Shown here piece after piece: positions 2,053 through 36,349 of a stretch of DNA of 56,872 bases (positions are counted from its first letter, which is position 1; each line of letters begins with the position of its first letter). The translations under genes and the position numbers were made by a program. The stretch is from assembly GCA_024401455.1 (NCBI GenBank), contig JAKSLA010000018.1, forward strand, positions 1-56,872, given 5' to 3'. This stretch comes from Paludibacteraceae bacterium (GTDB lineage: Bacteria > Bacteroidota > Bacteroidia > Bacteroidales > Paludibacteraceae). The notes beneath the pieces are model-generated. The model was not told where the DNA came from. It made no database searches and worked only from the letters and a program-made list of their open reading frames with translations.

Positions 2053-2315
2053 AAAAAGCGTCATTGACCGCTTGTTTTTGATCGATTGAAACTTCCACAT
2101 TCAAAGAGTTGTCGGAAACAAAGCAGGAAGTGATGCCTATGGGTATGCTAATCACGCATCCTGTGTGTGCAGAAGGTCTCTCGTAAGACTTTCATGCACA
2201 CTTTGGGGTTGTGTTTGTATACTTCACGTAGGTATCGCTCTGCTAATTCTCAACTCAAGGCTGTGGAAGGCCCCAATCGAAGAATGAGCAGAAGTGAATA
2301 CCTACGCTTTTTTTT
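2053..2315 (+). ncRNA. Candidate structured non-coding RNA
   Basis: About 265 bases with several strong stems and no good reading frame. Possible closing stem AAAAAGCGT (2053-2061) with ACGCTTTTT (2304-2312). Hairpin A: CAGGA/TCCTG (2124-2128, 2159-2163) enclosing GTGAT/ATCAC and ATGCC/GGTAT. Hairpin B: GTGTGCA+GAAGGTCT (2165-2179) with AGACTTTC+TGCACAC (2186-2201), 15 pairs with one bulge. Hairpin C: CGTAGGTAT (2227-2235) with ATACCTACG (2298-2306), followed by eight T (2308-2315), a terminator shape. I cannot match it to 6S RNA, tmRNA, RNase P RNA, SRP RNA or a known riboswitch. The 5' end is uncertain. Confidence 0.45.
2227..2315 (+). terminator. Intrinsic terminator of the candidate ncRNA
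   Basis: Nine-pair stem CGTAGGTAT/ATACCTACG, extended after an internal loop by TCTGCT/AGCAGA, then a run of eight T. Confidence 0.55.
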
Positions 2316-2398
2316 GTATAACATTGATAATAAAATGTCTGTTTTAGGTATTGGCGGATTCAACATAATAGATCAAATAGATAAAAATCTCGTACATC

Positions 2399-2456
2399 AT
2401 TGCCGTTACTGATAATCCAGAATTAGCACCTCAGAATTAGCATCAGTACATTTACG
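2399..2456 (+). repeat. Imperfect hairpin with an internal direct repeat
   Basis: Arms ACTGAT and ATCAGT, with outer CCGT and ACGG (2403-2456), enclose two direct copies of CAGAATTAGCA (about 2418 and 2432). It lies in the gene-free stretch between the candidate ncRNA and the dam gene; purpose unknown. Confidence 0.35.
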
Positions 2457-2551
2457 GAAACGATGTTTACGCTTCTTCATAAGGGCGTGAACTGAATTTT
2501 TGTTGTCTGATGCTGGCCGTGCTAAGCCATGGATTAACCTCAAATCTTCTT

Positions 2552-2590
2552 TCATGCCCTTTTCTAAAATTTGGAGAAGGGCATTTTTAC
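2552..2590 (+). terminator. Intrinsic terminator just upstream of the Dam gene
   Basis: Stem TGCCCTT/AAGGGCA extended by G-U pairs (TGCCCTTTTCT with GGAGAAGGGCA), then TTTTTA. It ends about 20 bases before ATG 2611. It insulates the restriction operon from upstream transcription and implies a transcript ending here. Confidence 0.6.
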
Positions 2591-2610: not shown

Positions 2611-3495
2611 ATGAGAGCAAAACCTTTTATTAAGTGGGTTGGGGGTAAATCACAACTTATAGAACAATTGGATGCTCAGTTACCTACAGATTTTGGTGAT
2701 TGGGAAAATGTTACCTACATCGAGCCTTTTGTGGGTGGAGGGGCGATGCTTTTCTATATGCTTCAGCGCTATCACAATATTCAGCATGCTGTCATTAATG
2801 ATATTAATCCTGACCTTGTCTGCTGTTATAAGACGGTTCGTGACCAAGTGGAAATGCTTATCGAATCGCTTCGAAATTATGAACAATTATATTTAGCGTT
2901 GCAGACGGAAGAGGATCGAAAAGATTTTTATATGTCTGCTCGTAGTCGCTATAATGAGAAGAGTTTGGATTCGATAGAAAACACCACTTTGTTTTTCTTC
3001 CTTAATCGTACCTGTTTCAATGGTTTGTATAGAGTTAATAAGAGTGGACTTTTCAATGTGCCATTCGGGAAGTATGCTAATCCAACCATATGCGACCCTG
3101 ATACGCTTCGTTTGGATAGTGAGTTGTTGCAACGAGTTGAGATTGCGAATGGTGATTTTGCAGAAACTTTTCAATATGCGCAAGGCAATACTCTTTTCTA
3201 TTTTGACCCTCCATATCGTCCTTTAAGTGATACTTCAAGTTTTAATGACTATACAAAGGAGGCTTTTAATGATAAAGCGCAGATACGACTGAAAGAGTAT
3301 TGTGATCGTATTCATGCTGCTGGTTATCATTTTATGCTCAGTAACTCGGATTGTAAAGGGAAGAATGAAGCAGATAACTTCTTTGATATATTGTATGAAG
3401 CATATCATATAGAGCGTGTATGGGCTTCGCGTAATATTAATGCTATTGCATCGAAACGGGGTAAACTCACAGAAATACTTGTTCGTAACTATTAA
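2611..3495 (+). CDS. dpnM: DNA adenine methyltransferase, Dam/DpnM type (GATC)
   Basis: 294 residues; transfers a methyl group from S-adenosylmethionine to N6 of adenine, most probably in GATC. It has the D12/Dam-class order: KWVGGKSQL at residues 8-16, the SAM motif EPFVGGGAM at 38-46 and the catalytic DPPY at ~199-202. ATG 2611 is chosen because the family begins MxxKPFIKWVGGK; the frame extends upstream to 2500 but through the terminator hairpin. It is the first gene of a three-gene operon with a DpnII-like endonuclease 4 bases downstream and a second methylase after that, and so protects host DNA from that nuclease. Confidence 0.9.
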   Translation: MRAKPFIKWVGGKSQLIEQLDAQLPTDFGDWENVTYIEPFVGGGAMLFYMLQRYHNIQHAVINDINPDLVCCYKTVRDQVEMLIESLRNYEQLYLALQTEEDRKDFYMSARSRYNEKSLDSIENTTLFFFLNRTCFNGLYRVNKSGLFNVPFGKYANPTICDPDTLRLDSELLQRVEIANGDFAETFQYAQGNTLFYFDPPYRPLSDTSSFNDYTKEAFNDKAQIRLKEYCDRIHAAGYHFMLSNSDCKGKNEADNFFDILYEAYHIERVWASRNINAIASKRGKLTEILVRNY

Positions 3496-3499
3496 AAAT

Positions 3500-4327
3500 A
3501 TGGAGAAAGATTTCAATAAATTCATGTCTCAACTTCAAGAGACAAATCAAACACTTGACTTTTTCTGTGATTTCGATAAAATCGCAAAGAATGTAGAGGA
3601 TATAAAACTCAGTTTATGCATACTTAATAGCCTTTTAGGAGCGGCGGATATGCGTAAGGCAGTTGAAACAATATGGAAGCGAGATAAAAGTGCATTTAAT
3701 GTTATGGATATCCTTATTGCTGTTCGCAGTGAAGGTCATAAAAAGGTGTTAAACTCATTAGGAGAATGCGTAGTTATAGACTCATTGTTCAAGTCTGTGG
3801 ATGGGGTAATGGAGTATCTTGACAATACAGGTCTTACTGAAATTTTCCAGCAAAATAAGATAAAAGATTTGGTGGACTATGTATTTGGTATAGAGACTGG
3901 ATTGGATTCAAATGCCAGGAAGAATCGAAGCGGTCATGTAATGGAAGGTGTGGTGGCTCGTATATTTGAAGAAGCGGAGGTTGAGTATCGTCAAGAAGTC
4001 TATTCAAGAGAATGGCCTTCCGTCTCAAAGGCATTGGGTAGTGATGAGAAGCGTTTTGATTTTGTCGTGAAAACAAAGTCTAAGACTTATCTTATGGAGG
4101 TAAATTTCTATAGTGGAGGGGGCTCAAAACTGAATGAAGTGGCACGTTCCTATTCTGATATTGCGCCTAAGATCAACAATGTTCAAGGCTTTGAGTTCGT
4201 ATGGATTACTGATGGTGTTGGTTGGAAGAGTGCACGGAATAAGCTACAAGAGGCGTATAACATTATACCAAGTATTTATAATCTGACTGACATTGTTGAT
4301 TTTGTCAAAATGATAAAAAACGAATAA
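3500..4327 (+). CDS. dpnII: DpnII-family type II restriction endonuclease (GATC)
   Basis: 275 residues, close to the ~288 of R.DpnII. It should cut unmethylated GATC. The PD-(D/E)XK-like core is visible as RFDFVVK (Asp ~187) followed by YLMEVNFY (Glu ~200, Asn ~202), then a GGGSKLNE loop, the arrangement of the DpnII group. ATG 3500 (MEKDFNKFMSQLQE) begins four bases after the dam stop codon; the longer upstream frame overlaps dam and is not needed. It is flanked by two methylase genes. No truncation or missing core residue is evident. Confidence 0.88.
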   Translation: MEKDFNKFMSQLQETNQTLDFFCDFDKIAKNVEDIKLSLCILNSLLGAADMRKAVETIWKRDKSAFNVMDILIAVRSEGHKKVLNSLGECVVIDSLFKSVDGVMEYLDNTGLTEIFQQNKIKDLVDYVFGIETGLDSNARKNRSGHVMEGVVARIFEEAEVEYRQEVYSREWPSVSKALGSDEKRFDFVVKTKSKTYLMEVNFYSGGGSKLNEVARSYSDIAPKINNVQGFEFVWITDGVGWKSARNKLQEAYNIIPSIYNLTDIVDFVKMIKNE

Positions 4328-4336
4328 CCTCAAATT

Positions 4337-5257
4337 ATGATTGAAGCCTACTATAAATCATCCAACAATGATTTTCTTCTTGCTTATGGAGATACATTCC
4401 AATTATTGAAGAATTTCTCTTTCAAGTTTGATATGATATTTGCAGACCCTCCATATTTCCTTTCCAATGGAGGTATTAGTCTTCAAAGTGGCAAGGTTGT
4501 GTGTGTGAATAAAGGAGATTGGGATAAGGGAAAAACTCCGGAAGAAATGAACGAATTCAACCTGGAGTGGCTTCGTTTGTGTCGAGATAAATTAAAGGAT
4601 AATGGTACTATATGGGTTTCTGGTACTTACCATAATATTTTTTCAGTAGCAAATTGTCTTACAAAACTCGGATATAAGATTCTTAATGTAATAACATGGC
4701 AGAAAACTAATCCTCCAATTAATATATCGTGTCGTTTTTTTACCTATTCAACAGAATTTATTGTTTGGGCAAGAAAAAATCAGAAAGTATCTCATAAGTA
4801 TAATTATGAATTGATGAAACGATTAAATGATAACAAACAAATGACAGATGTTTGGCGTCTCCCTGCTATTGGACGTTGGGAAAAGTCATGTGGCAAACAC
4901 CCCACACAAAAGCCTCTTTCGTTATTGACTCGTATCATTTTGGCCTGCACTGATAAGGGAGATTGGATTTTTGATCCTTTTAGTGGTAGTTCAACTACTG
5001 GAATAGCTGCAAACTTGTGCAATAGGAAATTTGCAGGAATAGAACAATCTGAAGAGTTTTGTGCTATGAGCAAAGCCAGAAGGGAAGAGATTGAGGATGT
5101 TAGACAAAGAATGAATCTAATGCATCATATTGTTGACTTTAAAACTTTGGAAGCAAATAAGCAATTCAGTTTGTTTGACGATGTGAATGGTAATACGTCA
5201 TGTGAGGGTGACTATGGCCTGTATGGAGACCTTCCCTTTGATACGAAACCAGAGTAG
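4337..5257 (+). CDS. dpnA: Second adenine methyltransferase, DpnA type
   Basis: 306 residues, N6-adenine methylase of the beta type: the catalytic motif FADPPYF comes first (residues 35-41) and the SAM motif FDPFSGSSTTG near residue 212, the reverse order of Dam. In DpnII systems this second enzyme (DpnA) can methylate single-stranded DNA and helps establish the system in new cells. It starts 9 bases after the endonuclease gene. Here the gene order is methylase, nuclease, second methylase, unlike the dpnM-dpnA-dpnB order of Streptococcus pneumoniae. The C-terminal tail (NTSCEGDYGLYGDLPFD) is unremarkable. Confidence 0.85.
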   Translation: MIEAYYKSSNNDFLLAYGDTFQLLKNFSFKFDMIFADPPYFLSNGGISLQSGKVVCVNKGDWDKGKTPEEMNEFNLEWLRLCRDKLKDNGTIWVSGTYHNIFSVANCLTKLGYKILNVITWQKTNPPINISCRFFTYSTEFIVWARKNQKVSHKYNYELMKRLNDNKQMTDVWRLPAIGRWEKSCGKHPTQKPLSLLTRIILACTDKGDWIFDPFSGSSTTGIAANLCNRKFAGIEQSEEFCAMSKARREEIEDVRQRMNLMHHIVDFKTLEANKQFSLFDDVNGNTSCEGDYGLYGDLPFDTKPE

Positions 5258-36157: not shown

Positions 36158-36159
36158 TG

Positions 36160-36233
36160 CTCTCCCTCTTGGACTTGAACCAAGGACCCCCTGATTAACA
36201 GTCAGATGCTCTAACCGACTGAGCTAAGGAAGA
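36160..36233 (-). tRNA. tRNA-Asn (GTT), downstream copy
   Basis: 74 bases. Acceptor TCTTCCT / AGGGAGA (one G-U), D arm GCTC-AGTCGGTTA-GAGC, anticodon loop CTGTTAA with GTT, T arm CTTGG-TTCAAGT-CCAAG, discriminator G. CCA is not encoded. Identical to the copy at 36276 and co-transcribed with it. Confidence 0.95.
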
Positions 36234-36275
36234 ATGCACTTTGGAACTATTTAGAGTGTTGTTCCGCCACTTTTG

Positions 36276-36349
36276 CTCTCCCTCTTGGACTTGAACCAAG
36301 GACCCCCTGATTAACAGTCAGATGCTCTAACCGACTGAGCTAAGGAAGA
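36276..36349 (-). tRNA. tRNA-Asn (GTT), upstream copy
   Basis: 74 bases, identical in sequence to the copy at 36160; the two are separated by 42 bases. First gene of the minus-strand tRNA operon, with a consensus promoter 28 bases upstream. Confidence 0.95.

Follow-up and report, generated by a model that had tools for sequence, protein, structure and literature searches.

Restriction systems need the right order and dose of expression, and to our knowledge little is known of how they are controlled in Bacteroidales. The stretch of DNA analysed here (the window, 56,872 nucleotides from a Paludibacteraceae bacterium) raises this question at one locus, where an intergenic sequence has a 76-aa gene on one side and, on the other, an operon encoding a D12 methyltransferase, a DpnII-type endonuclease and an N6/N4 methylase. 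The first-pass annotation had proposed that this sequence encodes a structured RNA, possibly regulatory or linked to defence. What is this RNA, and what could it do for the genes that follow? The structured RNA adjoining the Dam/DpnII operon is confirmed; it is conserved and matches no family in Rfam 15. Judged from its sequence and that of its homologues, it is probably a leader RNA that controls the dam-dpnII-methylase operon in cis by transcription attenuation.

On the plus strand, positions 2053-2315 fold far more stably than expected by chance: the minimum free energy is -108.3 kcal/mol, whereas shuffles average -66.6 (sd 5.1; z = -8.2) and none of 200 folds as well; the minus strand is less extreme (z = -5.7). 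The stems picked out at first can be assigned to the elements of Table 1. The 15-pair hairpin is P3, the long terminator stem with its eight T is P4 together with the U tract, and the possible closing stem exists as P1c, which covaries in homologues. The stems of the compound hairpin described at 2124-2163 are present, and it overlaps P2 plus the antiterminator strand (2130-2161). The mutually exclusive partners of the stems, the hairpin P5 past the T run and a second copy of the core before dam had been missed.

Searches of the whole window against Rfam 15 returned two tRNAs elsewhere and no family at gathering score on the RNA; the first-pass annotation had not matched it to 6S RNA, tmRNA, RNase P, SRP RNA or common riboswitches. 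A permissive scan of 1640-2660 (E up to 5) gave three weak matches, far under the gathering scores, and scans of 20 homologous loci gave nothing on the RNA and, outside it, one tRNA and one Acido-Lenti-1 match. The latter (L101, 255-300, minus strand; 38.3 bits, gathering 37) lies on the opposite strand, upstream of the leader RNA. Like 6S-Flavo RNA (RF01685), the present RNA is a structured RNA of Bacteroidetes; however, neither RF00013 nor RF01685 has a covariance-model match at its place, and 6S RNA was rejected. Elsewhere in the genome, a sub-threshold 6S-Flavo match (L064, C97:11667-11792; 36.9 bits against a cut-off of 85) is possibly the organism's 6S RNA. Retron, TnpB and bridge-type RNAs were considered and set aside, the check consisting of the reading-frame list and six Pfam scans.

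The 76-aa gene (1807-2037) ends immediately 5' of the RNA and has no Pfam match; an alignable, partly diverged counterpart occupies the same place in all four other Dam-type loci compared (L019, L038, L097, L099). No clear promoter box was seen immediately before the window's RNA. Two observations concern the window at large. At 3-588, two neighbouring similar reading frames carry Lys/Glu/Gly-rich repeats that differ in number and end in a nearly identical C-terminus; the pair looks like a recent duplication, and a Pfam scan of 250-585 gave no match. At 36159-36349 there is a tandem pair of tRNA-Asn (gtt) genes with equal covariance scores.

Table 1. Elements of the leader region and the genes of the operon, in window coordinates.
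Feature	Position	Strand	Evidence or remark
Leader RNA, copy 1 (5' domain, terminator hairpin, U tract)	2054-2315	+	Fold z, model R1, covariation in homologues
P1c, 5' strand; closing stem of the 5' domain, proposed anti-antiterminator	2057-2064	+	Pairs with 2130-2137
P0, small hairpin, alternative to P1c (weak)	2058-2071	+	Permutation
P1b hairpin (2072-2081 with 2112-2121); loop holds strand A	2072-2121	+	Helices 2-3
Strand A (A1 2082-2088, GAAA-type joint, A2 2092-2098)	2082-2098	+	Pairs with B
Antiterminator strand GATGCCTATG, complementary to the terminator 5' arm	2132-2141	+	Permutation
P2 hairpin	2141-2161	+	Helices 4-5: 89.6% and 91.2% of cells paired
P3 hairpin	2163-2201	+	Helix 6: 97.7% of cells paired
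P4, putative terminator hairpin (P4a 2227-2236/2296-2306, P4b 2237-2250/2281-2292)	2227-2306	+	T-fold
Strand B, complement of A (B1 2263-2269, B2 2274-2280)	2263-2280	+	A:B tests
U tract of the putative terminator	2308-2315	+	T run
P5 hairpin, whose loop (2344-2354) can pair with the P4a 3' arm	2336-2359	+	Permutation
Second compact core copy	2413-2588	+	A':B' energy, five-locus alignment, terminator scan
Parts of the second copy	A' 2413-2429; hairpin 2439-2446/2507-2514; B' 2519-2536; terminator-like hairpin 2554-2588	+	
dam-type D12 adenine methyltransferase, operon gene 1	2611-3495	+	PF02086, E 3.5e-61
DpnII-type restriction endonuclease	3500-4327	+	PF04556, E 2.2e-100
Second DNA methylase (N6_N4)	4337-5257	+	PF01555, E 3.2e-58

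Homologues were sought from a blastn-type search over 61 genomes, where three genomes besides the window's own had partial matches at 70-85% identity, one genome holding three copies; one match (L005; 32 bases, poor fold) was spurious. With a pattern made from the first homologues, 56 stretches were retrieved from the genome collection; 45 of them hold the RNA or its 5' part, under titles naming Bacteroidales, other Bacteroidetes groups or just a bacterium, many from rumen or gut; the other 11 (L008, L017, L029, L037, L044, L049, L051, L053, L055, L060, L063) carry no sign of the RNA and were dropped. Seven loci that are truncated, at a contig end or internally deleted (L014, L021, L023, L030, L032, L045, L046) were kept outside the alignment, and the remaining 38 form with the window a set of 39. 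Alignment A1 comprises 37 of these (without L031 and L033), and the covariance model R1 was built from 37 sequences. It scores 114.3 bits on 2054-2201 and finds no match in seven control loci that lack the RNA.

R1 has matches in 204 of 358 genomes and 18 of 33 genera of the window's family; at the level of the order, it matches 37 of 393 genomes. The broader model R2, whose source alignment A3 (also that of the covariation count) holds five doubtful weak matches of 21-28 bits on the opposite strand or at another place, extends the order-level count to 82 of the 393 genomes, spread over 55 of the 207 genera sampled. In a phylum-wide draw, R2 matched 4 of 395 genomes, namely the window's own, another member of its order and two that share the class but not the order; the loci of the last two (L191, L192) also carry the A:B pairing described below. 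The RNA is often present in several copies per genome, and five were found in the window's own; such counts are lower bounds, with 7 or 8 candidates scored per genome. A later set of 126 loci includes 10 duplicates and thus 116 distinct loci. Duplicates were removed by test-specific keys for the A:B, antiterminator, P1c and P5 tests and kept in the U-tract and first-gene counts, and the terminator, P5-shuffle, antiterminator and two-fold counts cover loci with A:B at -14 kcal/mol or lower. At some loci (L046/L110, L150, L021), copies break off midway or lack P2/P3 and give way to other sequence, possibly through recombination or decay. Around the RNA of L015/L003, where the neighbouring genes on both sides were read by eye, the upstream one is presumably a Y1-transposase-like gene and the downstream one an HxsD-like peptide-maturation gene.

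The first-pass annotation had made its case depend on compensatory changes in the stems of homologues, and these are present. In an alignment of 98 matches, 97 of them distinct rows, both sides have changed in 20 of 21 modelled pairs, the modelled helices are paired in 91.8% of cells, and the covariation score is 0.445 against 0.245 in shuffles (0/500), falling to at most 0.128 when the partners are slid by 1-3 columns; this alignment is fitted to the model and so leans toward structure, and in the unfitted alignment A1 only 5 of 21 pairs changed on both sides. In P1b, 6 of 7 pairs changed on both sides and its two helices are paired in 95.2% and 90.5% of cells; in P3, all 6 modelled pairs changed on both sides. 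In the permutation tests, here and below, relatedness among loci remains. For P1c in 110 loci, the RNA's own partner gives -9.2 kcal/mol against -8.0 when permuted (0/20000), and the 33 distinct 5' strands also give 0/20000. P0 reaches 0/20000 on 110 loci and 132/20000 on the 33 distinct 5' strands, and its pairing is nearly absent in L174 and L177; P0 is a weak candidate for a switch partner.

The strongest feature of the RNA, a predicted long-range pairing, lies outside the covariance model. Strand A, with the form A1-GAAA-A2 in the loop of P1b, has its complement, B1-RCC-B2, at the apex of P4, and A:B amounts to -17.2 kcal/mol or lower in 39/39 loci. When A is fixed by position in these 39 loci, the pairing is -22.8 kcal/mol within an RNA versus -11.0 between RNAs (0/20000); when the best anchor is allowed for every partner in 113 distinct loci, the values are -22.4 and -14.5 kcal/mol (0/20000). 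With anchors treated alike, an RNA's own B is the single best partner of its A in 60/113 loci and among the best five in 90/113, and the competitors are, in our reading, usually related copies. Moreover, A and B differ among the copies of one genome and each A matches its own B: in 20 copies from five genomes A with its own B averages -23.1 kcal/mol, and A with the B of another copy from that genome -14.0, in a comparison where the anchor was picked for the own partner and which therefore favours self. The same bias applies to an earlier run on 114 loci (-22.4 versus -13.7), in which the anchor was picked by the own B; five loci of this run (L101, L104, L105, L106, L154) had no GAAA-type anchor, and the 113-locus test likewise met five such loci. 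In one locus of the window's genus (L120, genome G003), A2 and B1 are mismatched and the A and B strands look as if taken from different copies; a gene-conversion chimera or an assembly error is possible.

P4 and the T run after it have the stem and U tract of a predicted intrinsic terminator. The 3' arm of P4 pairs upstream at -6 kcal/mol or lower in 111/115 loci, and a T run of at least five follows P4 in 108/116 loci; among 570 background windows the share is 22.8%. A second complement of the P4 5' arm is a strand of the form GATGCC(T/C)AYG between P1 and P2, and in the window the 10-mers GATGCCTATG and CGTAGGTATC pair along their full length. This antiterminator helix has -12.9 kcal/mol with the own partner against -11.9 permuted in 98 loci (0/20000), and -12.3 against -11.1 for 56 distinct arms (0/20000). 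With two other regions of the RNA the P4 5' arm pairs less (-10.0 and -8.6 against -12.9), and a few loci (L036 for one) have their best partner for the terminator arm elsewhere. The GATGCC strand pairs in addition with the 5' end of the RNA, as P1c. Since both the GATGCC strand and the terminator arm have two partners each, the anatomy is that of an attenuator, and conserved alternative pairing is found for both terminator arms, the 5' arm with the antiterminator strand and the 3' arm with P5.

A:B nests with the antiterminator helix, and it crosses P1b and P4. In the window, holding the A strand free gives P1c, P1b, P2/P3 and P4 at -94.0 kcal/mol, and holding the terminator 3' arm free gives A:B with the antiterminator at -100.0 kcal/mol. 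Across 114 loci, the two folds differ by a mean of 6.5 kcal/mol (sd 5.2); folding without constraints comes closer to the antiterminator in 104 of them, and in 100 the constrained T-fold has the terminator arm paired. A factor or the kinetics of folding must therefore favour the terminator if it ever acts. One long hairpin as the sole structure was rejected: the minimum-free-energy fold is nearer the antiterminator, yet P1b and P4 are also conserved. Overall, two mutually exclusive predicted folds are supported by compensatory change.

P5 lies about 25-45 nt past the T run in many loci. In 101 distinct loci, unsplit, its pairing with the 3' arm of P4 is -10.9 kcal/mol for self against -8.8 permuted (0/20000). 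By a split chosen after the data had been seen, in which L131 belongs to genus g32 and not to g21, 76 loci outside the genus g21 give -12.2 against -9.8 (0/20000), and the 27 g21 loci show no signal (-7.2 against -7.4, 13986/20000); in several g21 loci a gene starts directly after the T run. Against dinucleotide shuffles, only 17 of 114 single loci reach 4 or fewer of 200, and the evidence for P5 is thus collective. Because it follows the terminator, P5 cannot decide termination in the same transcript. By eye, P5 may pair with the start codon in a few Prevotella-type loci (L010, L011, L040, L050, L056).

That P4 terminates, that the two folds switch and that P5 is a latch are steps we infer from these pairings. 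In the OFF state, the GAUGCC strand (2132-2141) would stay in P1c with the 5' end of the RNA, P4 and the U tract would form, and transcription would stop at about 2315. In the ON state, the GAUGCC strand would instead pair with the P4 5' arm, and this helix plus the long A:B helix would make up the antiterminator. After read-through, the loop of P5 would catch the freed 3' arm of P4 and so keep the antiterminator fold from reverting. The signal may be a small molecule, a protein or the speed of transcription. We know of no described counterpart of a post-terminator latch hairpin such as P5.

By sequence, dam and its operon seem to follow two leaders in series. From the end of the first RNA to dam is about 295 nt, and in between lies the terminator-like hairpin of a second, compact copy of the core. 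Its A' strand reads TAATCCA and TTAGCAC and its B' strand GTGCTAA and TGGATTA, and A':B' amounts to -24.8 kcal/mol. A further conserved stretch between P5 and dam is common to the window, L019, L038, L097 and L099, of which L097 and L099 are near-identical. In L097 both the A' and B' halves differ and still match, by eye in the alignment of the five loci; also by eye, the second genes of L038, L097 and L099 are DpnII-like.

By position, the RNA is a presumed 5' leader acting in cis. For the 116 distinct loci, the next frame, called mechanically (ATG, at least 90 codons), is on the same strand in 100 and on the opposite strand in 7; 5 loci have none within 1 kb and 4 were not scored, so that 100 of the 107 loci with a frame within 1 kb have it on the same strand. 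The downstream frame starts at a median of 334 nt from the start of the RNA, and upstream frames are mixed (43 plus, 30 minus). A regulatory role, one half of what had first been suggested, thus holds in part: by its position the RNA would act as a cis leader.

The other half, a link to defence, also holds in part. Pfam was run on 98 of the 100 first downstream proteins (near duplicates L033 and L105 excluded, the window's gene restarted at 2611); in a tally giving 25 of 93 families, where one protein may match several, 13 of the 98 are D12 and 12 are C5 DNA methyltransferases, followed by N6_Mtase, MBOAT and GtrA (4 each), Eco57I (3), and N6_N4, DegT, TdeIII endonuclease and PAPS reductase domains (2 each). 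The share of loci before restriction genes is not unbiased, because the first 39 came from a pattern of RNAs like the window's. Many other first proteins are, by reading, secreted or lipoproteins, and some belong to surface polysaccharide; the RNA is therefore not confined to defence. The AbiF-associated ncRNA (PMC12373285) likewise lies beside a defence gene, whereas the RNA described here precedes many types of gene. The apparent lack of relation among the downstream genes speaks against one metabolic pathway and in favour of either a global signal or an action on the polymerase.

The same two folds could serve a metabolite or second-messenger riboswitch, in which the 5' domain closed by P1c would be a ligand-binding aptamer. 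SAM-I is an OFF-type transcriptional riboswitch in which closing stem, antiterminator and terminator compete. The present RNA resembles such riboswitches in being a 5' leader whose closing stem competes with an antiterminator and the antiterminator with a terminator, and its occurrence in many copies, its leader location and the two cores in series before dam fit as well. It differs in that strand B, in the apex of the terminator, pairs back to the 5' domain, that P5, past the terminator, pairs with the terminator 3' arm, and that the genes downstream appear unrelated, with no evident common pathway. Further, the invariant letters of A1 in the alignment are partly due to the search pattern, and the broader set shares, by eye, mainly short stretches such as GAAA and RCC. 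An aptamer is possible, though somewhat doubtful.

If the RNA instead modified the polymerase itself, in the manner of put- or EAR-like processive antitermination, it would serve long accessory operons, and its place before variable operons of unrelated content would fit. The epsC/EAR (RF01735) and JUMPstart (RF01707) leader elements of polysaccharide operons are linked to transcription elongation (PMC2864571). The present RNA is likewise a leader element; however, no Rfam match to these families was found in the window or on the RNA in 20 loci, and a simpler switch between terminator and antiterminator explains the paired elements. This explanation appears unlikely.

Recruitment of a NusG-type antiterminator (UpxY, RfaH or LoaP-like) is very improbable. 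According to PMC7819879, UpxY acts on the 5' leaders of Bacteroides fragilis capsule operons, and the likeness lies in Bacteroidales leaders of surface-polysaccharide genes, which some of our loci precede, with premature termination (here predicted). Unlike those leaders, the RNA also precedes restriction and secreted-protein genes, and 12 of 19 RNA-carrying genomes have a single NusG-domain protein, 2 have none and 5 have two or three; seven of the 12 (G161, G164, G195, G217, G082, G017, G590) are 95-99% complete and rich in the RNA. A NusG paralogue in each RNA-carrying genome was not found, and it was rejected as the general trans factor. NusG-domain proteins number two in the window's own genome, where a paralogue could thus still act, and three in four other carriers of the RNA, and the counts are compatible with housekeeping NusG itself.

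There is little to recommend a small RNA that acts in trans and stops at a terminator of its own, for which promoter-like TAnnTTTG boxes upstream in many loci (by eye) and the terminator could speak; its position is tied to the next gene, on the same strand in the 100/107 loci noted above, and each copy has its own A:B pair, as pairing in cis predicts. A DNA element, either a mobile end or a recombination site with merely RNA-like symmetry, is scarcely credible, since the many copies per genome, some cut short (L021, L046/L110, L150), are set against G-U pairs, compensatory changes, a strand-fixed position before genes and a U tract on one strand, and a phage- or plasmid-borne element was rejected, as neither blastn of 2040-2620 against plasmids and phages nor a pattern search of viral contigs gave a match.

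Attenuation by a leader that chooses between terminator and antiterminator, which we prefer, is a known kind of control; the class of RNA, the set of genes it precedes and P5 appear to be new when set against Rfam 15 and the titles and abstract openings of the literature. No leader RNA before restriction genes in Bacteroidales was found in those titles and abstract openings. The analysis gives a name to a recurring intergenic sequence that lacks an Rfam family and offers a testable RNA class of many copies, each keeping its own internal pairings, which links the genes of DNA modification, surface polysaccharide and secreted proteins to one kind of predicted switch; it also gives concrete mutations and read-outs toward finding the signal. 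It is a long shot that a single class of RNA sensor, with its P5 latch, jointly switches DNA modification and restriction and the operons of surface glycans and surface proteins on one intracellular signal. If true, that signal could be, for example, a nucleotide messenger or slowed transcription during infection, and a single sensor class would coordinate what phages meet in Bacteroidales.
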